DNA of 60,388 nt from Acidobacteriota bacterium. Lineage in GTDB: Bacteria; Acidobacteriota; Holophagae; Holophagales; Holophagaceae. The notes under the pieces are model-generated. The model worked only from the letters and a program-made list of their open reading frames with translations, was not told the DNA's origin and searched no databases. The stretch spans positions 1 to 60,388 of the forward strand of contig BJFQ01000007.1 of NCBI GenBank assembly GCA_014189895.1, in the 5' to 3' direction. The position numbers were made by a program, and so were the translations under genes. Shown here one piece after another: positions 33,431 through 46,638 of this stretch (the first letter of the stretch is position 1; the number at the start of each line of letters is the position of its first letter).

Positions 33431-33733
33431 CTACTTGATGGCGAAAGCGGCCACAAGAGCGTAAATGACCAACGCTTCAATGAGCGCCAAGCCGATGATC
33501 ATAGTGGTGCGGATTTCACCCGCAGCTTGAGGATTACGCGCAATACCTTCACAGGCAGCCGCGACGGCTTTACCCTGAGCCAAACCACAACCCACAGCCG
33601 CAATGGCGAGTGAGAGATGGGCAAGGAATTGGCCTTCAAAGAGCGACTTAGAAACAGCGGGAGCAGCGTCTTCCATTCCAAAAAGAGCCACGGAGACCGT
33701 GAAGAGCAACGCGGTGGTGAAGAACTTTTTCAT
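33431..33733 (-). CDS. atpE: ATP synthase subunit c
   Basis: Proteolipid of the rotor ring. The 100-residue protein has a 20-plus residue N-terminal leader ([22 protein letters not shown]) absent from most subunits c but seen in some phyla, then two helices. The first contains [26 protein letters not shown] and the second the ion carboxylate Glu86 in IEALVIYAL. Ala follows Glu86 rather than Ser/Thr, which points to protons rather than sodium. It is the last gene before the terminator. Confidence 0.95.
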
Positions 33734-33778
33734 AAAAACCCCTAAAAGATGAGCAGGATCAGCTGCTTCGTTAAGAAA

Positions 33779-34534
33779 TTAATGGTCGTGGGCAACGGCG
33801 CCCGATAAATAAATAATGGAAAGCACGGTGAAGACGAAGGTTTGAATTAAACCGAAGAACAAACCTAAAAATAACATCGGGATGGGTAAAAAGAGAGGCA
33901 AAATTCCAAAAAAGATACCTGCTACCAAATGTTCTCCGGCAATATTCCCAAAAAGACGGAGCGAGTGACTCAAATTGCGACTCAGGAGACCTAGGATTTC
34001 CAAGGGAAACATGAGGGGGATCAGGAACGCAACAGGGCCCGCAAAATGACCCCAATAAGACCAAAATCCTTTTTCTTTCATGCCATGAAAATTGTAGTAA
34101 CAGAAAACAGCCAGAGCCGCGCCTAGGGTTACATTCCAATTGCTTGTTGCAGGAGATAGACCGGGAGTAATCCCAAAGAGGTTGTTGAAAAACACGAACA
34201 AAGCGATCGTACCGACAAAAGGTAAATAGCGCTCAGCGTGATGAGCAATACTCGCTTTAACCATATCGTCTAAACCGCTAATGACCATTTCGAAGACTTG
34301 TTGGAGCGGATTAGGAATCTTGGTCATGCGGGTACGAACCCAGGTCGCAATGATCAGGGTGACTAAAACAGCTAGGGAGGCATTCAAAAGATGGTCATAA
34401 CGTTCAAGCACTGAAAAGTACTCATGGACCGAATGACCTTCTTCTTGAAGGATGCCAAAGCCCTCCCACTGGTATCGAGTTAAATTAAAAAGCTCGGTCA
34501 GCCATTTGGCTAAATACGATGCGTGGTGTTCCAT
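33779..34534 (-). CDS. atpB: ATP synthase subunit a
   Basis: Stator half-channel protein of F0. A soluble N terminus leads to about five to six helices. The essential Arg sits in SHSLRLFGNIAGEH, and the last helix reads IQTFVFTVLSIIYLSGAVAH, both typical. 251 residues. It starts two bases after atpI; atpE follows 45 bases later. The subunit b gene (atpF) that usually comes next is not in this cluster. Confidence 0.96.
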   Translation of the reverse strand: MEHHASYLAKWLTELFNLTRYQWEGFGILQEEGHSVHEYFSVLERYDHLLNASLAVLVTLIIATWVRTRMTKIPNPLQQVFEMVISGLDDMVKASIAHHAERYLPFVGTIALFVFFNNLFGITPGLSPATSNWNVTLGAALAVFCYYNFHGMKEKGFWSYWGHFAGPVAFLIPLMFPLEILGLLSRNLSHSLRLFGNIAGEHLVAGIFFGILPLFLPIPMLFLGLFFGLIQTFVFTVLSIIYLSGAVAHDH

Positions 34535-34536
34535 AG

Positions 34537-34929
34537 TTATACCTTTGGCGAACCTTTAAACAACATCAAACGAAGGGCCTCAAGAAGAATACTGGCTGGG
34601 AAGAGACTTATCCCGAAAGCCAAAGGAATGCCTTCGCTTGGATAATACTTCATAATCTCACGCACGAACCAAATGATCAATATCAGTTTGCTTCCAAATA
34701 GGGTTCCATAAACCCATCGCTGTCTAAGATTTTCGTTGAGCATACGATCGAGGAAGATTCGTTGCGTAGCCCAAAGCATTAGGCTCAGGCTCCCGGACAA
34801 AGCAAAGACAGTGAGACTCGAAAAAGACATCGAACCATAGATCAAGAGCCCTATGGCCCAAAGACCTATTTGGATTCGGCTGAGCCTTTGAAGAGTCTCC
34901 CCCCCCGGCGTGGTGAGAGATAATCCCAT
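34537..34929 (-). CDS. atpI: AtpI-like ATP synthase accessory membrane protein
   Basis: A 130-residue protein with about four helices (residues 25-42, 46-62, 85-102 and 108-125 roughly), in the position of the ATP synthase I chain, which assists c-ring assembly. The start is at ATG 34929, overlapping the atpZ stop (TGATG); a GTG one codon earlier is an alternative. Sequence conservation in this family is low, so the call relies on size, topology and location. Confidence 0.65.
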   Translation of the reverse strand: MGLSLTTPGGETLQRLSRIQIGLWAIGLLIYGSMSFSSLTVFALSGSLSLMLWATQRIFLDRMLNENLRQRWVYGTLFGSKLILIIWFVREIMKYYPSEGIPLAFGISLFPASILLEALRLMLFKGSPKV

Positions 34930-35186
34930 CACTTTTCCTTGGATGAGGAACTCTTGGAATTGAGACGCTGTGAGGTCTTAAAGAGTTCCCAAAAGGCACT
35001 TGCGATACCCCAAGCTAATCCGATCCATTGACCTAAGACAGGTCGCCCAAACCATCCACCGATCCATTTTCCCAAAAAGAAGCCCAGGGTGATGGCGACT
35101 GGAAAGACGAAGGCAATAGAACTAAGATCGCCCCAGAGGGCCCGTTCATGGGGGCCTGAGTTCTCTGAATTGAGATTTGATTTCAT
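34929..35186 (-). CDS. atpZ: AtpZ/AtpI-family accessory protein
   Basis: An 85-residue two-helix protein of the AtpZ family: SSIAFVFPVAITLGFFLGKWIGGWFG and GLAWGIASAFWELFK are typical helical hairpin sequences. AtpZ is proposed to aid ATP synthase assembly or ion (Mg/Ca) supply. The start overlaps nuoN by four bases, joining the complex I and ATP synthase parts of the operon. Confidence 0.85.
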   Translation of the reverse strand: MKSNLNSENSGPHERALWGDLSSIAFVFPVAITLGFFLGKWIGGWFGRPVLGQWIGLAWGIASAFWELFKTSQRLNSKSSSSKEK

Positions 35187-36664
35187 AGTTTAATTTTATC
35201 AACGACTTCAATGAGCCAGCGGCTTACTGAAACGCCCAGCAAGACGACGAGCGCGCAGACGGTCACCAAAACACCTGTGACGCGGTCCATCCTAAGGGGT
35301 TCTTCGCTTGGATGCGACCTAAAATACATTTGATTGATAACCCCTAAGTAATAGTAGGCGCTGACAGCACTGGTGAGGACGGCAATCACTGTGAGGACCA
35401 CAAATCCTCGCTCGAGCGCCATTTTGAAAAGGATGAATTTACTGAAAAACCCGATGAGCGGAGGAATACCTGCCAAGCTGAGTAAAAAGAGCATCATAGC
35501 AAAGGCCAACCATGGATTGCGGTGTGATAAACCTCGAAAGTCTTCGATGCGCTCGCCCTCACCCTTCCCCTGAAGGAAAGTAATAATGGCAAAAGCACCA
35601 AAATTGGTAAAAAGGTAGGCGAAGACGTAAAGCCATAGCGTTTGCACGCCCGAAAAACTCATGACTGAAAGATTAGGATCGTTGGAAAGAATAGCCAGCA
35701 TCATGTAGCCCACATGGGCGATGGACGAGTAAGCTAACATGCGCTTCATCGATTGCTGACGCAAGGCCGCAACATTCCCTAGGATCATGCTGGCTCCAGC
35801 CATGTACTCCATGCCCAGCATCCATACATTGGGAATACGATGAAAAGCCACTCCAAATACTTTAGCGAAAGCAAAAATAGCGGCGGCCTTGGGGGCGCTC
35901 GCCATGAACGCCGTGATGGGTGTTGGTGCTCCATCGTACACGTCCGGTGTCCACATATGAAAGGGGACAACCGCAACTTTAAAGGCCATACCTACGAGGA
36001 CCATTAAAACCCCTAGGGTAACCATTGTGCCTCGAGAATCCATTGCAGCCACTAATGCGGAAGAGAGTTCATCAAGGTTAGTCGTCGTTCCCCCGGTGGT
36101 ACCAAAGAGTAGACTGATCCCGTAAATCATAATGCCGCTAGAAAAAGCGCCTAATAGGAAGTATTTAACCCCAGCCTCAATACCTCGTTCCTGCTCTCGG
36201 AAATAACCCACCAACACGTAAATAGGGAGTGCCATCAACTCAATGGAGAAGTAAACCGTCACTAAGTCTGTGGCACCACAGAGCAATAACATACCCGACA
36301 ATGTAAAGAGCAAAAGGGCGTAGAACTCGACCGTGTGTTCTTGCATGAGATCTAACAGTTTCGTTGACAGCGCAACGGTTGCCAACGTCGCGAGGACGCA
36401 GATCAATTGAAAGTGTTGCGTCATCGCATCGATACGCAACATATCCGAGAAGCCGGATCGGTGGGGGGTCAGGGCTATCAGATAAATCGTTATGCCGAGG
36501 GTAATCTGAGTCAAAAAGGACCAACGACGCTTTTGGTCACGAGGAATAAAAAGATCCCCAGGCCATAACATGAGGCTTGCAATCCCAATTAAGAAAAAGG
36601 GAGCTTGAACAAGGGGCGCGTCTTGCCAAAGCGCGGTCCAGAGACTTTGGGCAAAACTAGGCAT
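35183..36664 (-). CDS. nuoN: Complex I subunit NuoN
   Basis: Antiporter-like proton-pumping subunit, 493 residues, about 14 helices. The Glu of the family (YFSIELMALPIYVLVGY) and the Lys regions (GMAFKVAVVPFHMWTPDVYDGAPTPITAFM and MKRMLAYSSIAHVGYM) are clear. It begins one base from the nuoM stop and overlaps atpZ by four bases. Confidence 0.96.
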   Translation of the reverse strand: MPSFAQSLWTALWQDAPLVQAPFFLIGIASLMLWPGDLFIPRDQKRRWSFLTQITLGITIYLIALTPHRSGFSDMLRIDAMTQHFQLICVLATLATVALSTKLLDLMQEHTVEFYALLLFTLSGMLLLCGATDLVTVYFSIELMALPIYVLVGYFREQERGIEAGVKYFLLGAFSSGIMIYGISLLFGTTGGTTTNLDELSSALVAAMDSRGTMVTLGVLMVLVGMAFKVAVVPFHMWTPDVYDGAPTPITAFMASAPKAAAIFAFAKVFGVAFHRIPNVWMLGMEYMAGASMILGNVAALRQQSMKRMLAYSSIAHVGYMMLAILSNDPNLSVMSFSGVQTLWLYVFAYLFTNFGAFAIITFLQGKGEGERIEDFRGLSHRNPWLAFAMMLFLLSLAGIPPLIGFFSKFILFKMALERGFVVLTVIAVLTSAVSAYYYLGVINQMYFRSHPSEEPLRMDRVTGVLVTVCALVVLLGVSVSRWLIEVVDKIKL

Positions 36665-38295
36665 CAGTGCTTCTCCTCGGAGGTTTCAGCCTGGCTTGAA
36701 TTTTCATGTGTACCCGGAGCAATCATTCCCTGCATGCCTTCTTGCTTGGCTTTTTCTTGTTCCGTACTGATCGAAGGAGCTAGGTAGTAATCAGGGTTCA
36801 CTTGTCTGACTAATTTTGCCACTGGGCGATCCATAATTTCCATTAAGGGACGAGGGTAAAGGCCAATCCATACCGCCAAGATAACCAAAGGGGCAAAGAC
36901 CACCATTTCACGTGTTGTTAAATCGGACATCTTACGATTGACCTCCGAAATGGAGCCGAACATCACACGTTGGAACATCCACAACATATAAGCAGCGCCC
37001 AAGATAATTCCAGAAGTAGCTACAACGGCTGCCCACGGGAAGGCTTGAAAAGATCCCTGGAGAATAATGAGCTCGCCGATAAATCCATTAAGAAGCGGTA
37101 GCCCAATAGAACTCATCGTCATGATCATAAAAATAGTGGAGTAAATTGGCATGGTTTCCGATAGACCTCCGAAATCGGCAATCATGCGAGTGTGGCGACG
37201 ATCATAAACGACAGCTACGGCAAGGAACAAGCCCGGTGTACTGATGCCGTGATTAATCATTTGGAACAACGCTCCCTTAAATCCATACGGATTAAGCGCA
37301 AAGATGCCGAGCATACACATGCCTAAATGGCTGACCGAGCTGTAAGCCACCAATTTCTTCATGTCTTTCTGAATCATGGCTACCAGCGCACCATAAATGA
37401 TCCCAATGAGGGACATCGCGATAAACCAAGGCATTAAATCCTTCACGGCCGTGGGGAAAATAGGGAGCAAGAGGCGGACAAAACCGTACGTCCCCATTTT
37501 TAACAAAATGCCGGCAAGGATAACGGATCCTGCCGTTGGCGCCTGAACGTGCGCATCGGGTAACCACGTATGGAAGGGGAACATGGGAACTTTAATCGCG
37601 AAAGCCACAAAGAAAGCGAGCGCAAGCAGGGTTTGGTAAGTCTTGGTTTGCTGAGCAATAATGGGAGCCATTGCTTGAAACGATTCTAGGGAGAAATCGA
37701 AAGTTCCCTGGGTCTTGGCTTGCAAGAAATAAATGGCGAGAACGGCTACCAGCAAAAGCACCGATCCTGCGAGGGTATAGAGAAATAATTTAATGGCTGC
37801 GTAAAGTTTTTGAGGACCCCCCCAAATGCCAATTAAGAAATACATTGGAACGAGCATTACTTCCCAAAAAACATAAAAAAGGAACATATCCTGAGTGATG
37901 AAAACGCCCAACATCGCCGTCTGGAGCACCAACAGCCAAATATAATACTCTTTCAAACGTTCGATAATCGCCTCCCAGGAACACAAAATCGCAATAGGTC
38001 CTATAAAGGTGGTCAGTAACCATAACAGCAAACTAATTCCATCCATGCCAACGCTAAATCGAACTCCCAAGGAGGGAATCCAGGACCAACTTTGAGCCCA
38101 TTGAACCGCATCGCTCGTTCGATCGTAAGCGAAGAAAAATGGAATACTCAATACAAAACTCAAAACGGTCGCGAATAAAGCACCTTTCTTGAAAATCTCG
38201 CTGCGCTCTTTCGGCACAAAGAGTAAGGCCAAGGCGGCGGCAAAGGGGATAAACGTTGCAGCAAGCATGAGGAGAGTATTGGCAAATTGACTCAT
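36664..38295 (-). CDS. nuoM: Complex I subunit NuoM
   Basis: Antiporter-like membrane subunit of 543 residues. It has FYVFWEVMLVPMYFLIGIWGG (key Glu), FAIKVPMFPFHTWLPDAHVQAPTAGSVILAG and KKLVAYSSVSHLGMCM. A hydrophilic C-terminal tail of about 50 residues rich in Glu and Lys follows the last helix and is unusual for NuoM. Located between nuoL and nuoN. Confidence 0.97.
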   Translation of the reverse strand: MSQFANTLLMLAATFIPFAAALALLFVPKERSEIFKKGALFATVLSFVLSIPFFFAYDRTSDAVQWAQSWSWIPSLGVRFSVGMDGISLLLWLLTTFIGPIAILCSWEAIIERLKEYYIWLLVLQTAMLGVFITQDMFLFYVFWEVMLVPMYFLIGIWGGPQKLYAAIKLFLYTLAGSVLLLVAVLAIYFLQAKTQGTFDFSLESFQAMAPIIAQQTKTYQTLLALAFFVAFAIKVPMFPFHTWLPDAHVQAPTAGSVILAGILLKMGTYGFVRLLLPIFPTAVKDLMPWFIAMSLIGIIYGALVAMIQKDMKKLVAYSSVSHLGMCMLGIFALNPYGFKGALFQMINHGISTPGLFLAVAVVYDRRHTRMIADFGGLSETMPIYSTIFMIMTMSSIGLPLLNGFIGELIILQGSFQAFPWAAVVATSGIILGAAYMLWMFQRVMFGSISEVNRKMSDLTTREMVVFAPLVILAVWIGLYPRPLMEIMDRPVAKLVRQVNPDYYLAPSISTEQEKAKQEGMQGMIAPGTHENSSQAETSEEKH

Positions 38296-38316: not shown

Positions 38317-40530
38317 TTAACCAAGGAATTTAAAAAACATTAGAAGAACGAAACCCAAGAGCATGACAAAGGCATAGTTTTGTACTCGGCCCGATTGAAA
38401 TGTCTTGAAGAGAGAAGCAAATTGCTGAAATAGCCAAGCGACAAAATTAACAAGTCCATCCACAATGTAGGTATCAAACCAATAACTAGCATGTGCAAAC
38501 AGAAGGGTTGCGCGACCGGCTCCATTCACCATACCGTCCACGACCCAAGTATCAAAAGACCACAACTGACCGGCTAGACGCTTCATGGGGGTAATTAGCA
38601 AGGCTTCATAAAACTCATCAATATAAAATCGAGCATTGACCCATTCAAAAAGATTGGGATAATTTTTCACGAAGCGCTTTGCCCTCGACCATGAAGGGTC
38701 TGACGCATAGATCCAATAAGCTAAGGCCATGGCACCGGGGGCCCAGATGACCGTCGCCCAGATCATGAGTCCATACTCAACTTTAGAAACAGCTTCAATA
38801 CCTTCGGAGACAGATGTGATTTGATAAAGAATGGGTGAAAGCCATTCGGAGAAATAGGAGTGCCCTAAGAAATGAAGGGCGTGCGGGACATTGAGAAAAC
38901 CACCCCCGACTGCTAAAAGGGCCAGAATAAAGACAGGTACCCACATATTCCATGGCACTTCATGAGGCACATGTGCGCCCCTATGATGGTCGTCATGTCC
39001 GTGTGCGTCTCCGTGAACCGTCAAATGATACGGATCCTCGCCGCTACCGCGGTAACTTCCAAGGAATGTCATGCAGATTAATCGCATCATATAAAACGCA
39101 GTGAAGAAAGCGGCGACCATGCCCATCAGCCAGGTTAAGAGATATAACGTTGAACCTTGATAGGTTCCTCCTTGATACCAACCTTCAAAAACTTTCCACA
39201 GGATTTCATCTTTAGAGAAGAATCCACTGAAAGGGAAAATTCCAGCGATAGCGAAAGTGGACAAAAGCATGGACCAGAAGGTCCAAGGCATGTATTTTCT
39301 CAGACCCCCCATGTTTCTCATATCCTGCTCATGGTGGCAGGCCATAATCACAGAGCCCGAACCTAAAAAGAGACAGGCCTTAAAGAAAGCATGCGTAAAA
39401 ACATGGAACATGCCAGCGGTAAAAGCGCCAGCACCCATACCCATGAACATAAATCCCAATTGGGAGACCGTACTGTAAGCAAGCACCTTCTTAATGTCGT
39501 ATTGCGCTAGACCCATGGAAGCCGCTAGGAGAGCAGTAAGGGCTCCAATAATCAAAATTAAATGAAGTGCAGAGGGGGCATTAACAAATATAAAATTGAG
39601 TCGCGTGATCATATAAAGTCCTGAGGTGACCATCGTCGCAGCGTGAATCAAGGCTGAGACGGGTGTGGGACCCGCCATGGCATCAGGAAGCCAAACATAT
39701 AAGGGGATCTGAGCAGACTTACCCATCGCTCCCACAAACAAACAGCCCCCAATCAAGTTCATCCAAAAGGTGGGGGAAGCCGTGTGACCAAAGAGTGTGA
39801 TGGATGGTAACGCCATGAGGGATCTTGCAGAACCCATCAAGGTGTCATAGTCCAAAGATCCAAAAACCATGAAGATCAGGAAAAAACCTAGCATAAATCC
39901 AAAGTCACCAATGCGATTGGTCACGAAGGCTTTTTTAGCAGCATCGCCCGCGAAGGTCTTATCGAAATAGAAACCAATGAGAAGGTAGGAGCATAGACCG
40001 ACGCCTTCCCATCCCAAAAACATCATCAGAATGTTGGAGCCTAATACCAAGTTCAGCATGCTGAATACAAAGAGGTTGAGGTAGGCCATAAATCGGTAAT
40101 ACCTAAAATCCTTTTGTTCCTCTTCCATGTAGCCCGTACTGAAAAGATGGATAAGGAAGCCCGCTCCAGTTACCAAGAGAGCCATAGCCGCACTCAAGAC
40201 ATCGAACTTGTAGGCCCATTCTACGGTCGCAAAAGTCAGACGCTGGTCTGCAATCTGAGCTCCTCCGACGTCAAACCAAGTCCAAAGTGATTGATGGAGA
40301 CTTCGCGAGGATTCAGGTAATTGAAGGAGTTGGGAGAAATAAAATACGGATAATAAAAAGGACGCTCCAACGGAGCCCAAAGCAATTCCATTGACCCACT
40401 GATTATTTCGAAGATGCCGGCCCGTTACCCCGTTCACCAAAAAGCCAAAGAGCGGTAGAAACGGGATTAACCATAAATACGAAACAGCCTGGGAGGCTGG
40501 CATCAGATGAGTGAGTGTGGATTCGTTCAT
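38317..40530 (-). CDS. nuoL: Complex I subunit NuoL
   Basis: Distal proton-pumping subunit, 737 residues. Motifs: FLGWEGVGLCSYLLIGFY with the conserved Glu, KSAQIPLYVWLPDAMAGPTPVSALIHAATMV, and KKVLAYSTVSQLGFM. The C-terminal helix HL follows. A histidine-rich cytoplasmic or periplasmic loop (VHGDAHGHDDHHRGAHVPHE) lies before the last third of the protein and may bind metal. NuoL, NuoM and NuoN are all present, so the full pumping arm is encoded. Confidence 0.97.
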   Translation of the reverse strand: MNESTLTHLMPASQAVSYLWLIPFLPLFGFLVNGVTGRHLRNNQWVNGIALGSVGASFLLSVFYFSQLLQLPESSRSLHQSLWTWFDVGGAQIADQRLTFATVEWAYKFDVLSAAMALLVTGAGFLIHLFSTGYMEEEQKDFRYYRFMAYLNLFVFSMLNLVLGSNILMMFLGWEGVGLCSYLLIGFYFDKTFAGDAAKKAFVTNRIGDFGFMLGFFLIFMVFGSLDYDTLMGSARSLMALPSITLFGHTASPTFWMNLIGGCLFVGAMGKSAQIPLYVWLPDAMAGPTPVSALIHAATMVTSGLYMITRLNFIFVNAPSALHLILIIGALTALLAASMGLAQYDIKKVLAYSTVSQLGFMFMGMGAGAFTAGMFHVFTHAFFKACLFLGSGSVIMACHHEQDMRNMGGLRKYMPWTFWSMLLSTFAIAGIFPFSGFFSKDEILWKVFEGWYQGGTYQGSTLYLLTWLMGMVAAFFTAFYMMRLICMTFLGSYRGSGEDPYHLTVHGDAHGHDDHHRGAHVPHEVPWNMWVPVFILALLAVGGGFLNVPHALHFLGHSYFSEWLSPILYQITSVSEGIEAVSKVEYGLMIWATVIWAPGAMALAYWIYASDPSWSRAKRFVKNYPNLFEWVNARFYIDEFYEALLITPMKRLAGQLWSFDTWVVDGMVNGAGRATLLFAHASYWFDTYIVDGLVNFVAWLFQQFASLFKTFQSGRVQNYAFVMLLGFVLLMFFKFLG

Positions 40531-40536
40531 AAAGGC

Positions 40537-40839
40537 TTATCCATTCAATAAATTAATGTCGTCGGCTTGTACCGTATCTTTACGCCGATACAAAGCCACG
40601 GCCAAAGCGAGCCCTATGGCGACCTCAGCGGCCGCAAATCCCATGACCAATAGGGCGAAAGCTTGACCTTCCACGGTCCCACTTTGTCTTGCAAAAGCGA
40701 TGAGATTCAGATTTGCAGCATTGAGCATGAGTTCGACCGACATCAAAATGATCAAAAGATTACGTCGAATCAAAACGCCCGCAACACCAATGAAGAACAT
40801 CAAGGAAGAAATGAACAGAACAACGTTGAGAGAGATCAC
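40537..40839 (-). CDS. nuoK: Complex I subunit NuoK
   Basis: Three-helix subunit of 100 residues with two conserved membrane glutamates in ILMSVELMLNAANLNL and GFAAAEVAIGLALAVALYRR. Overlaps nuoJ by four bases. Confidence 0.96.
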   Translation of the reverse strand: MISLNVVLFISSLMFFIGVAGVLIRRNLLIILMSVELMLNAANLNLIAFARQSGTVEGQAFALLVMGFAAAEVAIGLALAVALYRRKDTVQADDINLLNG

Positions 40840-41390
40840 GATACACGCTCCGACTTAGCGAGTACCAAGGCACCTACGAGTGCTACCAAAAGAATGACCG
40901 AAAGGATTTCGAGGGGAAGCAAGAATCCTGCAAATAAACCTCGACTCACCATTTGTGCATTTTGAGCACTAACTGAAAGGCCTTGGGCAAGATCGGGAGC
41001 GAGTGAAAGGGCCACCGGGGCTGTGGCGCCAAATAGATTAGATTTCATCGTATAGGCAAAGATACCGAGCGCAATTAAGACTAGTGGCAAAGACCACTTG
41101 ATTTGTGTGGTGAACAAACTCTTTTCCTTATACTTGGTCAGTTCAACTAACATGACCACAAATAGGAACAGGACGACAATGCCGCCCGCATAAACCAGTA
41201 GCTGGGCCATACCAAGGAATTCTGCACTCAGACATAAGAAACAAGCGGCCACCATAATCATGGAAAACAAAAATCCCAGGACGCTGTGGACAGCTGAAGT
41301 AGAGAGAATCATCACCGCCGCTCCCGCACAGGCCAAAAGACCAAAGACGAGGAAGAGATTGTGACCGATGCTCGTAAAGAGTGCATTCAT
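40836..41390 (-). CDS. nuoJ: Complex I subunit NuoJ
   Basis: Five-helix membrane subunit, 184 residues. SAVHSVLGFLFSMIMVAACFLCLSAEFLGMAQLLVYAGGIVVLFLFVVML contains the pi-bulge helix region near Tyr and Gly-Gly that controls proton coupling. Follows nuoI by 13 bases. Confidence 0.95.
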   Translation of the reverse strand: MNALFTSIGHNLFLVFGLLACAGAAVMILSTSAVHSVLGFLFSMIMVAACFLCLSAEFLGMAQLLVYAGGIVVLFLFVVMLVELTKYKEKSLFTTQIKWSLPLVLIALGIFAYTMKSNLFGATAPVALSLAPDLAQGLSVSAQNAQMVSRGLFAGFLLPLEILSVILLVALVGALVLAKSERVS

Positions 41391-41403: not shown

Positions 41404-41931
41404 TTAGGTGTAATCAGGCGAATCGGGAGTAGCCGATGAGGAAATAGAATATTGACCGACCGGAGACACACGGAACATATCTTGGAATTGCCCATCCATA
41501 CCAATCGAGAAATCTTCACGGTTGTAAGCTGCAAGTTCAAACTGATGATTCAAGATAATGGAATCAAATCCGCAACTTTCGACACAGAATTCACAAAAAA
41601 TACAGCGCTCCATCTCAAAGTCATAACGAGTCGGATAGGGCGTCTTACGTCCTTCTTTTTTGCCCTTATTAATAGTGATCACCTGTGTCGGGCATATTTT
41701 TTCACAGGCTAAACAGCAAACACATTTGATTTCTCCCTGCTCGTCTCGAAGCATCTGAAGACGACCTCGATATCGTGGGGCGATGGTAATAGGTGTTTCA
41801 GGATACTCCACGGTGATATGAATATGTTTCTTAGATCGATTAGCTTGGAAGAAGTTTCTACCGAAATATTTTCCGGTTAATTTCATCCCCGAGGCAATGT
41901 CGATGGGTAGTAGTTTTTTCAAAATAGACAT
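41404..41931 (-). CDS. nuoI: Complex I subunit NuoI (two [4Fe-4S] clusters)
   Basis: Carries clusters N6a and N6b in the peripheral arm. Start chosen at ATG 41931, eight bases after the nuoH stop. The first motif is CVCCLACEKICP (regular C-x2-C-x2-C-x3-C-P); the second is CIFCEFCVESCG, in which the usual Pro after the fourth Cys is Gly. GRLQMLRDEQGEIKC precedes the first site. 175 residues. The C-terminal tail (Ser/Thr/Asp-rich) is longer than usual. Confidence 0.94.
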   Translation of the reverse strand: MSILKKLLPIDIASGMKLTGKYFGRNFFQANRSKKHIHITVEYPETPITIAPRYRGRLQMLRDEQGEIKCVCCLACEKICPTQVITINKGKKEGRKTPYPTRYDFEMERCIFCEFCVESCGFDSIILNHQFELAAYNREDFSIGMDGQFQDMFRVSPVGQYSISSSATPDSPDYT

Positions 41932-41938
41932 AGGAGTC

Positions 41939-43117
41939 CTAGAAAGTAAATCGGATCGCTGCAGCAACGAGAAGGTTCACTAAGGTAACGGGGATCAGCC
42001 ATTTCCAACCCACGCTCATCAATTGATCGTAGCGATAACGGGGTAAAGTAGCCCGCACCCAAAGGAAAACGAAAAGGAGAAAGAAAACTTTACCGAAAAA
42101 GAACAGCAAACTAGGTTGGGCAAGAAAGGGAATGGAGTCCGGCACAAATCTTTGGAGACCAAAGGGCAGTAGGTAGTGTCCGCCCAAGAAGAAACCCGCT
42201 GCAATCGCTGAAACAGCCATCATATTGGCGTATTCAGCCAACATAAACCAAGCAAACTTCATACCGGTATATTCAGTATGAAATCCCGATACCAATTCGG
42301 TTTCGGCTTCAGCTAAATCAAAGGGGACACGGTTCGTTTCCGCAAAGCCACAAGTAAGGTAGAAGAAGAATCCAAAAAAGAGGGGGATCGCTGCAATCAG
42401 TGGCATCTGAACAACGGCACCTGCGGCAGTGACGGTGGGGACGCCCGCCAGGTAAATCGAAAGCTCTCTAAAGTTCAACGTACCCGAAAGAACCACCGCC
42501 GCCAACAACGAGAGGCTTAGAGGTATTTCATAGCTGATAATTTGGGCGGCGCTTCGGAGGCCACCTAAGAGGGGGTATTTTGAATTAGAAGCCCAACCAC
42601 CTAGGACGATGCCATAAACACCAATAGATCCCACGGCCATAATGTAGAGCAAACCTACATTAATATCTGTCAAGAAACCTGTGAAGGGCAAACCACCCAC
42701 GATCGGAAATTGATCCGGGAAGACGAAGAGGGCACCAGGATAAAAGCAGATGACGGCAAAAGTGGCAAAAGCTGGAATCATGCACACTACCGGAGCAATA
42801 ACAAAAACAAAACGATCAGCCCGATCAGGCACGATGTCTTCCTTAAGTAGCAATTTTAATCCGTCAGCTGCGAAGACCGGTAGACCCCGAAAGAATGACA
42901 GAACAGGAATTCGACCGATTGCCCATGAGAGTTTATTGATGCCCGCAGCAAATCCTCGAATCCCACCCGCTTGACGGGTCGCCCCTAATCGAACCTGAAT
43001 ATAGCCAATTACTTTGCGTTCCGCAAAAGTCATGAAAGGCACAATCAAAAGAATAATGGAAATCAGAACGGTAATTTGGATGACCGCCATCACCACCTGC
43101 TGAACAGGAGTCATCAT
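41939..43117 (-). CDS. nuoH: Complex I subunit NuoH
   Basis: Quinone-site membrane subunit, 392 residues. [19 protein letters not shown] near the N terminus, [30 protein letters not shown], and [31 protein letters not shown] are the conserved loop sequences lining the quinone chamber. It overlaps nuoD by four bases. Length slightly above average owing to insertions in the first third. Confidence 0.97.
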
Positions 43118-44214
43118 CGGTCCACCTCTCCGAGAACAACATCGAGTGTTCCAATGGCAGCGATGACATCAGCGAGTAAGCGGCCTTCTGTCATTTGAGG
43201 TAGCGCTTGAAGATTCACAAAGGAGGGACCACGCACATGGAAACGATAGGGATTTTGTGCACCCTTCTCCCCGACTAAGTAATAACCAAGTTCACCTTTG
43301 GGAGCTTCGATAGGGTGGTAGATTTCATTGACTTCGGATTTTAAAACCTTGGGAATCTTCGCCATCACATTACCTTCAGGAAGCCCGTCAATACATTGTT
43401 GAATAATGCGATGACTTTGACGAAATTCTTCAAGTCGAACAAGATAACGAGCATACGTATCTCCTTCGGTGCGCGTAGGAACTTCAAAATCCATTTCTGC
43501 ATAGGCAGCGTAGGGGAAAGCCTTTCGAACATCATAGTTGACGCCCGCGGCCCGCAGGACAGGTCCCGTAACCCCAAATGCAATACATTCATCAGCTTGA
43601 ATAGGGGCAATACCAATGGTTCTCTTTTTCCAGATGCGATTTTCTGTCAACAACGTCTCGTATTCATCGATACAGTTCAAAAACCGATCTTGGAAAGATT
43701 GAACCTGCTTGATGAACCCTGGGGGAATATCTTCGCGCAAGCCGCCGATACGAAAAGCGGTGGTTGTCAATCGAGCCCCACAGAATGACTCAAAACAATT
43801 AAGAATCTCTTCGCGCTCTCGGAAAGCATACAGGAATACCGTCATGGCTCCGATGTCGAGAGCATGCGTGCCGAGCCAAAGCAAATGTGAACTGATCCGA
43901 TTGAGTTCGGTCATCATCGTTCGGACGTAGTGGGCTCGACGAGGGACTTGAATACCAAATAATTTTTCGACCGACTCGGCCCATCCGAGGTTATTGCTTA
44001 CCGATGCCACATAGTCCATGCGATCGGTCCAAACTTGACCTTGGAAAAAAGTCTTGTTCTCGCAGATTTTTTCCACTCCGCGATGAAGATAGCCTATAAC
44101 AGGAGTGCACTTAACAATGGTTTCACCATCGAGACGAAGTTTGACTCGAAGCACCCCGTGCGTTGAAGGGTGTTGAGGTCCCAGATTGATTTCTAATTCC
44201 TCGTTTTTAAACAC
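43114..44214 (-). CDS. nuoD: Complex I subunit NuoD (49 kDa)
   Basis: Quinone-reducing site subunit, 366 residues. It contains [14 protein letters not shown] with the quinone-binding His, [39 protein letters not shown] and the final [19 protein letters not shown]. It is a separate gene from nuoC and follows it by 11 bases. Confidence 0.97.
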
Positions 44215-44225
44215 CGATCAAACTC

Positions 44226-45761
44226 CTAGTTGGCTTCTGGTTTCTTAAGATTAATACTCAGATTTCCTGCTTTTTCAAGGGAGAGACGCATCAAAACGCC
44301 TGATCGATCTTCGCGGAAATCAATTTCACGTTGTCCAAGACCGAGCGTTGGATACTCTTTTCGCAAAGGAAATCCTTCCCAATCCTCGGGACAGAGAATT
44401 CTAGTTAAGTCAGGGTGATTCATAAAGCGAATGCCTAACATATCAAAGATTTCACGTTCAAGCCAGTTGGCGCCAGGGTAAACCGCAACAGCGCTTGCTA
44501 CCTCATAGCCTTCCGGTATTAAAATACGTAAGCGTAAACGACGTTGTCGAGAGAGGCTCGTTAAATGATAAACAATGGAGAATTTGAATTGATCCGCGGC
44601 GGGATAGTGCGTTGCGGTTTCGTCTGCAAGCATTTCAAATTTCAGTGCAGGATCATCTTTACATAACGCTAAAGCTTCTAGAATAGAATCGGGGCGCACC
44701 TGGCAAACCAATTCCCCTGACTGCTGAAAAATTTCTTCAACTTTAGAACCTAATTTTTGTTGGAGATAGATAAGCTCGGGCGCTTCAGCTGAAGAAGGCG
44801 TGGGGGCAATGACATCATTATCGTCTTTTTTGGCGGCGGCGCGAACAGGGGCTTTGGGGGCTTCCTTGCCTTCAGCTATGGCTTTCGCTTTATTGGTTTC
44901 ATAATCTGCTAATTGCTTTTGCCACTTTGCTTCATCAGCTACTTTTTGAGCTTCTTGTTCGGCCAAGTAAATTTTCAGACTGGGAAGAGGGACTGTTTTC
45001 GGCATCACGACCACCCGATTGGGTGCAGCCGCAATATTCCATACAAAAGACTGACTAGCTTCGGGACTGTGGCCGTGCATTGCATCCACTTTCTTTTCAA
45101 TTTTAGGCGCGTCACCGAGGACACCATACTTGATCACGTCGACGGGACAACTCGCCGCAGCCGCAATAATTTTTTCAATCAGAGATTCCCCTAGGGCGTC
45201 TTTGATTTTAGACTTCTCGACTCGATTTTCATTTTCTTTTCCATCAAGCCGAACATCTGATTTGATATGGCAACTATCAGCAGTGACATGAAATACTTCA
45301 GGACACTCGGCTTCACAAGCGTTGCAGACAATACACCCTTCATCAATCCAGACCTCTGTAATGCGCGGCTTGGGTGTTAAGGCGCTTGCTTCAGGCAGGG
45401 GAGACGGCAGTGCGCTCGGGGCAGGCTCTGGTGCAGCCGTCGGGCTCACCGGGGCCGCAACTTCCGCTACGGTTTCCACCTTAGGTGATTCCACCGGGAC
45501 TTCGGAAACTACCTGTTGGTACTGAATCACATTGACGGGGCATGCAACCGCAGCCGCAATAATACTATTTTCTAGTGAAGACTGAAGGGCGGTATGAAGC
45601 GCGGATTTAGCGGATAGATTTTCGTCCTCTTGTCCGTCTACGCGTGCATCAGATTTGATATGACAGCTTTCGGCAGTGACATGAAATACGTCAGGGCATT
45701 CAGCCTCGCATGCGTTGCAAACGATACAACCTTCTTCAATCCAAACCTTGGTAATAGACAT
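44226..45761 (-). CDS. nuoC: NuoC fused to two N-terminal [4Fe-4S] ferredoxin domains
   Basis: An unusual 511-residue complex I subunit. Residues 2-82 and 134-213 are two nearly identical ferredoxin domains, each with C-x2-C-x2-C-x3-C-P (Cys12, 15, 18, 22; Cys143, 146, 149, 153), a further Cys (33; 164) and a distal Cys-Pro (74; 205). The spacing matches single-cluster Thermotoga-type ferredoxins. A Pro/Ala-rich linker (about 86-132) joins them, and a long charged linker (about 214-320) leads to a complete 30-kDa NuoC domain with YPGANWLEREIFDMLGIRF and HPDLTRIL, ending in LRKEYP. The fusion probably provides the electron entry that nuoEFG normally gives. It lies between nuoB (three bases away) and nuoD. 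Confidence 0.92.
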   Translation of the reverse strand: MSITKVWIEEGCIVCNACEAECPDVFHVTAESCHIKSDARVDGQEDENLSAKSALHTALQSSLENSIIAAAVACPVNVIQYQQVVSEVPVESPKVETVAEVAAPVSPTAAPEPAPSALPSPLPEASALTPKPRITEVWIDEGCIVCNACEAECPEVFHVTADSCHIKSDVRLDGKENENRVEKSKIKDALGESLIEKIIAAAASCPVDVIKYGVLGDAPKIEKKVDAMHGHSPEASQSFVWNIAAAPNRVVVMPKTVPLPSLKIYLAEQEAQKVADEAKWQKQLADYETNKAKAIAEGKEAPKAPVRAAAKKDDNDVIAPTPSSAEAPELIYLQQKLGSKVEEIFQQSGELVCQVRPDSILEALALCKDDPALKFEMLADETATHYPAADQFKFSIVYHLTSLSRQRRLRLRILIPEGYEVASAVAVYPGANWLEREIFDMLGIRFMNHPDLTRILCPEDWEGFPLRKEYPTLGLGQREIDFREDRSGVLMRLSLEKAGNLSINLKKPEAN

Positions 45762-45764
45762 CGA

Positions 45765-46280
45765 TTACCCTACAGACTCGAAGATTTCACCGTAACGATC
45801 AGACATACTTGACGTCATAATCTTGTCTTGCAACTTCAAAAAGCCATAGATCAAACTCTCGGGACGAGGGGGGCATCCCGGAATGAAAACATCCACGGGA
45901 ATAATTTTATCTACCCCTTGAATGGTGTGATAACTATCGAAGGGACCCCCTGCTGTTGCGCACGATCCCATAGCAATAACCCATTTAGGTTCGGGCATTT
46001 GATCGTAGAGTTTCTTAATGACCGGAGCCATCTTGTAGGTCACGGTCCCAGCCACGATCATCAAGTCTGATTGACGAGGAGTGGCTCTGAAAATGCCTGC
46101 GCCGAATCGATCAAAATCAAAACGACTAGCTCCCGCAGCCATCATCTCAATCGCGCAACAGGCTAGTCCAAAAGTCATGGGCCATACAGAAGAAGCCCGG
46201 GCCCAATTGACGACCTTTTCCACTTTGGTGGTGATCAAAATATGTTCGAGGGATGAGGGTTGATTAAGAATGACCGACAT
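45765..46280 (-). CDS. nuoB: Complex I subunit NuoB
   Basis: Holds the terminal cluster N2 next to the quinone site. 171 residues. Cluster Cys residues are visible in [25 protein letters not shown] and [10 protein letters not shown]. The helix [34 protein letters not shown] is fully conserved. It begins four bases after nuoA. Confidence 0.97.
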
Positions 46281-46284
46281 GAAC

Positions 46285-46638
46285 TTACTCCCAATTTAGG
46301 GCGCCCTTGGACCAAATGTAGGCGTACCCAATTAATAGCAAAAACAGAAAAATGCCCATCTCTACCAAACCAAAAATCCAAAGCTCTTTTAGTTGAAGAG
46401 CCCAGGGTAAAAGAAAAACCGTTTCAATATCGAAAACTAAAAACAGGACAGCGACGAGATAATATCTGACACTAAATTTTTCACGCGCATCGCCGGTAGC
46501 TGTGATACCGCACTCGTAAGTGGAATGTTTTGATGCGCTGTAGAAACTAGGGCGAATGAAACGAGAGAGACTCCACACCAAAGCAGGTAGAGTTAGGGAT
46601 ATGGCAATAAGCAACAAAATAGGTGCATAGCCTTGCAT
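46285..46638 (-). CDS. nuoA: Complex I subunit NuoA
   Basis: Three-helix membrane subunit, 117 residues. [40 protein letters not shown] is the diagnostic loop and second helix with Asp and Glu. First gene of the operon; the ribosome site GGGAGCGGAG precedes it. Confidence 0.96.

Follow-up and report, generated by a model that had tools for sequence, protein, structure and literature searches.

The window analysed here, a stretch of 60,388 nucleotides, is one contig of a draft genome of a member of the Holophagaceae (Acidobacteriota), which comprises 1.17 Mb in 42 contigs and is 97% complete. It contains a contiguous operon of 11 genes, nuoABCDHIJKLMN, with no nuoE, nuoF or nuoG within the operon (Table 1), and by gene content no docking subunits of the NdhS, NdhV or NdhO type were identified in the operon. 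The start codon of nuoC, the gene that encodes two additional N-terminal ferredoxin domains, is located 3 bases past the nuoB stop. The region directly after nuoN (33431-35186, minus strand) harbors an AtpZ-like gene, a small unassigned gene (34537-34932) and the genes for the ATP synthase F0 subunits a and c, so that some ATP synthase genes stand in one string with those of a proton pump; congeners possess a subunit-a-like open reading frame at the same place.

Table 1. Genes of the 11-gene nuo operon and segments of the nuoC product, with positions in the window.
Feature	Position	Strand	Basis or remark
nuoA	46285..46638	-	
nuoB (Oxidored_q6)	45765..46280	-	
nuoC fusion (Fd1-linker-Fd2-linker-30 kDa), 511 aa	44226..45761	-	ORF (ATG at 45761, stop ends at 44226), Pfam, orthologues with this architecture
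Ferredoxin domain 1, residues 1-83, net charge -8	45513..45761	-	Pfam Fer4_13/Fer4_15, AlphaFold2, Foldseek
Linker 1, residues 84-132, 43% Pro+Ala, fast evolving	45366..45512	-	low model confidence
Ferredoxin domain 2, residues 133-215, ligand pattern as domain 1, net charge -6	45117..45365	-	
Linker 2, variable part, residues 216-245	45027..45116	-	low model confidence
NuoC N-terminal extension, residues 246-345	44727..45026	-	conserved in Holophagaceae NuoC with or without the fusion
Complex1_30kDa domain, residues 354-472	44346..44702	-	Pfam
nuoD (Complex1_49kDa)	43114..44214	-	
nuoH	41939..43117	-	
nuoI, two 4Fe-4S motifs, basic hairpin between them KGKKEGRKTPYPTR, proposed ferredoxin dock	41404..41967	-	
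nuoJ	40836..41390	-	
nuoK	40537..40839	-	
nuoL	38317..40530	-	
nuoM	36664..38295	-	
nuoN	35183..36664	-	

The nuoC product matched Complex1_30kDa (PF00329) with 131.5 bits (cut-off 22.5) and TIGR01961 with 127.3 bits (cut-off 122.45), and a helix is predicted at residues 262-296 of the N-terminal extension. The N-terminal half gave two matches to the Pfam family Fer4_13 (38.3 bits, cut-off 24.5) and also two to Fer4_15, and each of the two domains contains a CxxCxxCxxxC motif followed by a distal CPV. Compared with the ferredoxins of P. furiosus and T. maritima, in which we take the first three cysteines and that of the CPV to be the cluster ligands, the predicted [4Fe-4S] ligands of domain 1 are C12, C15, C18 and C74, with equivalents in domain 2. 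These four positions are kept in all 20 complete fused domains examined, a 21st domain being truncated by a contig end. AlphaFold2 modelled domain 1 alone with a pLDDT of 84.6, and a Foldseek search with this model returned the single-cluster ferredoxins of P. furiosus, B. thermoproteolyticus and T. maritima as best matches, the top match to P. furiosus (E 3e-3, probability 1.00) being modest with an rmsd of 5.5. The model of full-length NuoC was poor (pLDDT 48, 7-row alignment) and was left out of distance estimates. By profile and ligand pattern, and for domain 1 also by predicted fold, each N-terminal domain is a single-cluster [4Fe-4S] ferredoxin of the Fer4_13 type, and the two full cysteine sets, the Pro/Ala-rich linkers and the normal 30-kDa domain described in an earlier reading of the sequence alone were recovered in the Pfam matches and in the ligands of both domains. 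The NuoC domains share the fold and the ligand spacing (CxxCxxC...CP) of the three Fer4_13 ferredoxins named above but differ from them by a longer central region, an extra conserved cysteine at position 33 and the tandem fusion. Domain 1 also has a cysteine at position 22, the fourth of the motif, which is replaced by Ser or Thr in loci L101 and L061 and in domain 2 of genus g11 (L046, L086, L088), whereas almost every member retains the unusual Cys33.

The two domains share 55 of 83 residues (66%) and differ at 10 of the first 46 positions, not at about eight as had been stated. Only 29 of the 55 shared residues are encoded by the same codon in both copies, with a dS of approximately 1.8. 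Orthologous domains were 69-73% identical across genera, compared with 59-66% between the copies within one protein, and domain 2 formed one clade over three genera (support 95/89, and 84/94 with more rows), which suggests that the duplication probably predates the split of these genera. A fresh duplication was rejected in view of the synonymous divergence, the domain 2 clade and the recurrence in other genomes. Between congeners, dN/dS was about 0.03-0.05 for the domains and the 30-kDa part, about 0.15 for linker 1 and about 0.05 for the whole gene, exact ratios being rough as dS at this distance is near or above 1. Linker 1, which also contains indels, is 57% identical between congeners as opposed to 92% in the flanking domains. 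The substitution patterns indicate that purifying selection is acting on both ferredoxin domains while the linker drifts, in agreement with the earlier proposal that the sequence is conserved by selection and not freshly copied. As the window stems from a draft genome, an assembly artefact, a chimaera or a pseudogene might be suspected. However, two genomes of the same genus carry the two-domain gene at 88% and 81% identity, and the architecture recurs in nine genomes of three genera from independent assemblies; together with the low gene-wide dN/dS and the close spacing to nuoB, this leaves an artefact hardly conceivable, and the independent assemblies refute it.

To determine how widely the architecture is distributed, its occurrence was followed in related and distant genomes. 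Within 77 Holophagaceae genomes, 13 encode a fused NuoC, nine with two ferredoxin domains (G000, G001, G002, G011, G012, G020, G368, G435 and G436) and four with one (G007, G016, G019 and G023); in G012 the two-domain gene is split across two contigs, and a contig-edge NuoC fragment of uncertain status in G439 was kept outside the count of four. The other Holophagaceae in which a complete NuoC was found, among them the large genus g4, taken as Geothrix, have a NuoC without ferredoxin, and Geothrix and the remaining genera possess the same 11-gene operon. Among the matches listed for 396 Acidobacteriota genomes, none outside the Holophagaceae combined the ferredoxin part with NuoC. When 84,980 species were scanned with a motif, an approach blind to fusions of unrelated ferredoxins, fused loci occurred solely in Holophagaceae among the best 80 of 123, and the other loci among these 80, many of them in Planctomycetota, had the ferredoxin without NuoC. 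A Bacteroidales locus (L134) considered as a fusion was rejected as plain NuoCD, and in a plasmid collection no place covered 80% of the query. The fused carriers are few related soil and water bacteria, and the architecture is lineage-specific. No earlier description of a ferredoxin-NuoC fusion was found in the open-access literature.

In a tree of NuoC only, a single clade of fused genes was not rejected (p-AU 0.126). In a tree of seven subunits, the unfused genera g4 and g5 lay between genus g6, in which NuoC has one domain, and the genera with two, which would imply either two gains of the fusion or one gain with losses; the tree of the ferredoxin domains has too few columns to place the origin of the fusion. 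Within genus g6, G440 (C49, 23768-24601) encodes a NuoC without ferredoxin, the other complete members having one domain, and recent loss and contamination (8%) are both possible explanations. A two-domain NuoC at L090 (3001-4722) contains an in-frame stop within the 30-kDa domain, in a draft assembly, and may represent a sequencing error or a pseudogene.

A second nuo set is encoded elsewhere in the genome at three loci: nuoABCDEF on contig C1 (L034, 13612-18359), nuoHIJKLMN on C6 (L039, 3183-10617) and nuoG on C8 (L040, 8025-9479), the NuoG being short with 484 aa. NuoF and NuoG gave one match each in the whole genome. Judged by its genes, the organism possesses a complete 14-subunit NADH complex I beside the one in the window that lacks the NADH module, and the earlier statement that nuoEFG are missing is correct for the operon but not for the genome. 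The genome further encodes KorAB, a 2-oxoacid:ferredoxin oxidoreductase, and a haem-copper oxidase, as well as a free 84-residue ferredoxin of the same type as the NuoC domains, which is conserved across the Holophagaceae and is the sole further Fer4_13-type ferredoxin found in this genome. The NuoC domains are paralogues of this free ferredoxin; since fusion is classical evidence of functional partnership, this suggests that the complex and the free ferredoxin work together.

A possible entry site for electrons from ferredoxin was sought in NuoI by comparing the stretch between its two cluster motifs, which matches the ferredoxin-binding hairpin of cyanobacterial NDH-1. In the 11-subunit complexes this hairpin is GKKEGRKTPYPTRYDF-like (GKKEGRK-like), with a net charge of +1 to +3 in 21 of 21 Holophagaceae NuoI examined. 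In the 14-subunit complexes of the family it is mostly acidic, with a net charge of -2 to +1 (n=16), while five NuoI of a sister family have -5 to -6; acidic residues also occupy the hairpin in the best-matching NuoI structures in the PDB, which stem from mitochondria and Paracoccus-type complexes. The hairpin difference could also reflect the descent of the two complexes instead of ferredoxin docking. The 11-subunit complexes have the basic stretch whether or not their NuoC is fused, which suggests that ferredoxin use by the 11-subunit complex came first and tethering later. The net charge declines from -7 to -13 in the free ferredoxin to -5 to -11 in domain 1 and -3 to -6 in domain 2, as one would predict if electrostatic steering mattered less for a donor that is tethered.

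Taken together, the hairpin charges, KorAB and the free ferredoxin paralogue favor electron entry from ferredoxin. We consider it probable, at roughly 0.62, that the operon encodes a ferredoxin-fed 11-subunit complex I and that part of the Holophagaceae carry the donor tethered on NuoC. The complex would receive electrons from reduced ferredoxin and not from NADH. The cell's 84-residue [4Fe-4S] ferredoxin would have been copied, the copy fused to the NuoC N-terminus and then duplicated, so that flexible tethers hold either one donor or two on the complex. Each such domain would be loaded with an electron by KorAB, probably the electron source for ferredoxin, or by the free ferredoxin, and would then swing to the basic NuoI hairpin, from where the electron may pass through N6a, N6b and N2 to quinone and drive the NuoLMN pumps. 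Tethering could provide a high local concentration of the donor and insulation from other users of ferredoxin. Cluster assembly, docking at NuoI, the direction of electron transfer, KorAB as the source and the benefit of tethering are what we infer from these data, and that the domains could reach NuoI is deduced from the length of the linkers. The basic hairpin, the charges and known tethered ferredoxins lend support to a mobile tethered donor. The proposal of the sequence-only reading that the domains act as a built-in wire or dock holds in so far as ferredoxin-fed entry is favored, but the domains are dispensable for the 11-subunit complex, as most Holophagaceae, including Geothrix, run it untethered. 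The NuoEFG of the second set could in principle also serve the 11-subunit complex.

A more far-reaching version, in which the tethered pair replaces a diffusible donor, is possible but less likely. KorAB would then reduce the NuoC domains directly, with one of them being recharged as its partner delivers an electron to NuoI, which would give an oxidase-bearing bacterium with a genome of only 1.2 Mb an insulated, NAD-independent route from 2-oxoacids to quinone. We regard it as rather unlikely that the domains form a fixed wire, an ordered relay from a soluble donor through Fd1 and Fd2 to N6a that substitutes for the cluster chain of NuoG/NuoF. The serial arrangement of two domains with the same ligands, the second being nearer the NuoC core, would suit such a relay; however, the length of linker 1, its Pro/Ala content, its fast evolution and its indels are unlike what a rigid relay would require, as is the low model confidence of both linkers, and, moreover, one-domain versions exist and the residues around the cluster are nearly identical in both domains.

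Complex I is reversible, and the same parts would in principle permit quinol and the proton motive force to reduce the tethered or free ferredoxin for biosynthesis; as KorAB, the haem-copper oxidase and the second NADH complex better fit a forward respiratory role, such reverse use is improbable. Slightly less probable still is a role of the domains as a docking or assembly device without electron carriage, e.g., for recruiting KorAB or the NuoEFG of the other complex. The presence of nuoEFG elsewhere in the genome would be in line with such a device, as would the loss of the fourth motif cysteine in domain 2 of one genus. This cysteine, however, corresponds to what is presumably a disulfide partner and not a ligand in P. 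furiosus ferredoxin, all four predicted ligands are retained in every complete domain, and nuoEF share an operon with a nuoABCD set of their own.

The donor of bacterial 11-subunit complexes I is an acknowledged open question; no shared donor emerged when one was sought, and more than one partner has been put forward (PMC11238625). As in Desulfitobacterium and Dehalococcoides, the complex studied here consists of nuoABCDHIJKLMN without nuoEFG, and ferredoxin is the proposed donor, for Desulfitobacterium in the form of ferredoxin/PFOR; in contrast, the donor of those complexes is separate and unproven, and no ferredoxin domain is described on their NuoC (PMC11238625). Cyanobacterial NDH-1L likewise has 11 core subunits and a basic hairpin on its NuoI counterpart, NdhI, and uses a ferredoxin donor, as we propose here; its acidic ferredoxin docks on the NdhI hairpin and the NdhH C-terminus, 9.6 A from N6a (PMC6992706, PMC7021789). 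However, the NDH-1L donor is a soluble plant-type [2Fe-2S] protein, with NdhS, NdhV and NdhO around the site, whereas predicted [4Fe-4S] domains are linked covalently to NuoC in the present complex. A redox enzyme naturally linker-fused to its own ferredoxin is known from CYP51-ferredoxin of Methylococcus capsulatus, in which the ferredoxin serves its attached partner and delivery by random encounter was argued; this is a soluble P450 with one ferredoxin domain and not an energy-converting complex (PMC9519919). In an engineered hydrogenase-ferredoxin fusion, tethering ferredoxin to its acceptor improved the circuit (PMC2847965). The architecture on NuoC is real, selected and lineage-specific, and what appears to be new is the tethering of predicted ferredoxins to a putatively ferredoxin-linked 11-subunit complex I, the function of which we infer. 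It would provide a natural case, in a proton-pumping complex, of the donor tethering used in synthetic electron circuits, and unfused, one-domain and two-domain states all occur within one bacterial family. The natural fusion names a specific donor candidate for the 11-subunit complex I, the single-cluster ferredoxin family, and the donor question becomes directly testable in culturable Geothrix, with its free ferredoxin and unfused complex. Close relatives of the free Holophagaceae ferredoxin are also encoded in Planctomycetota (L120, L129, L132, L157, L159 and others) and could be a sign that electrons take the same route in these bacteria.
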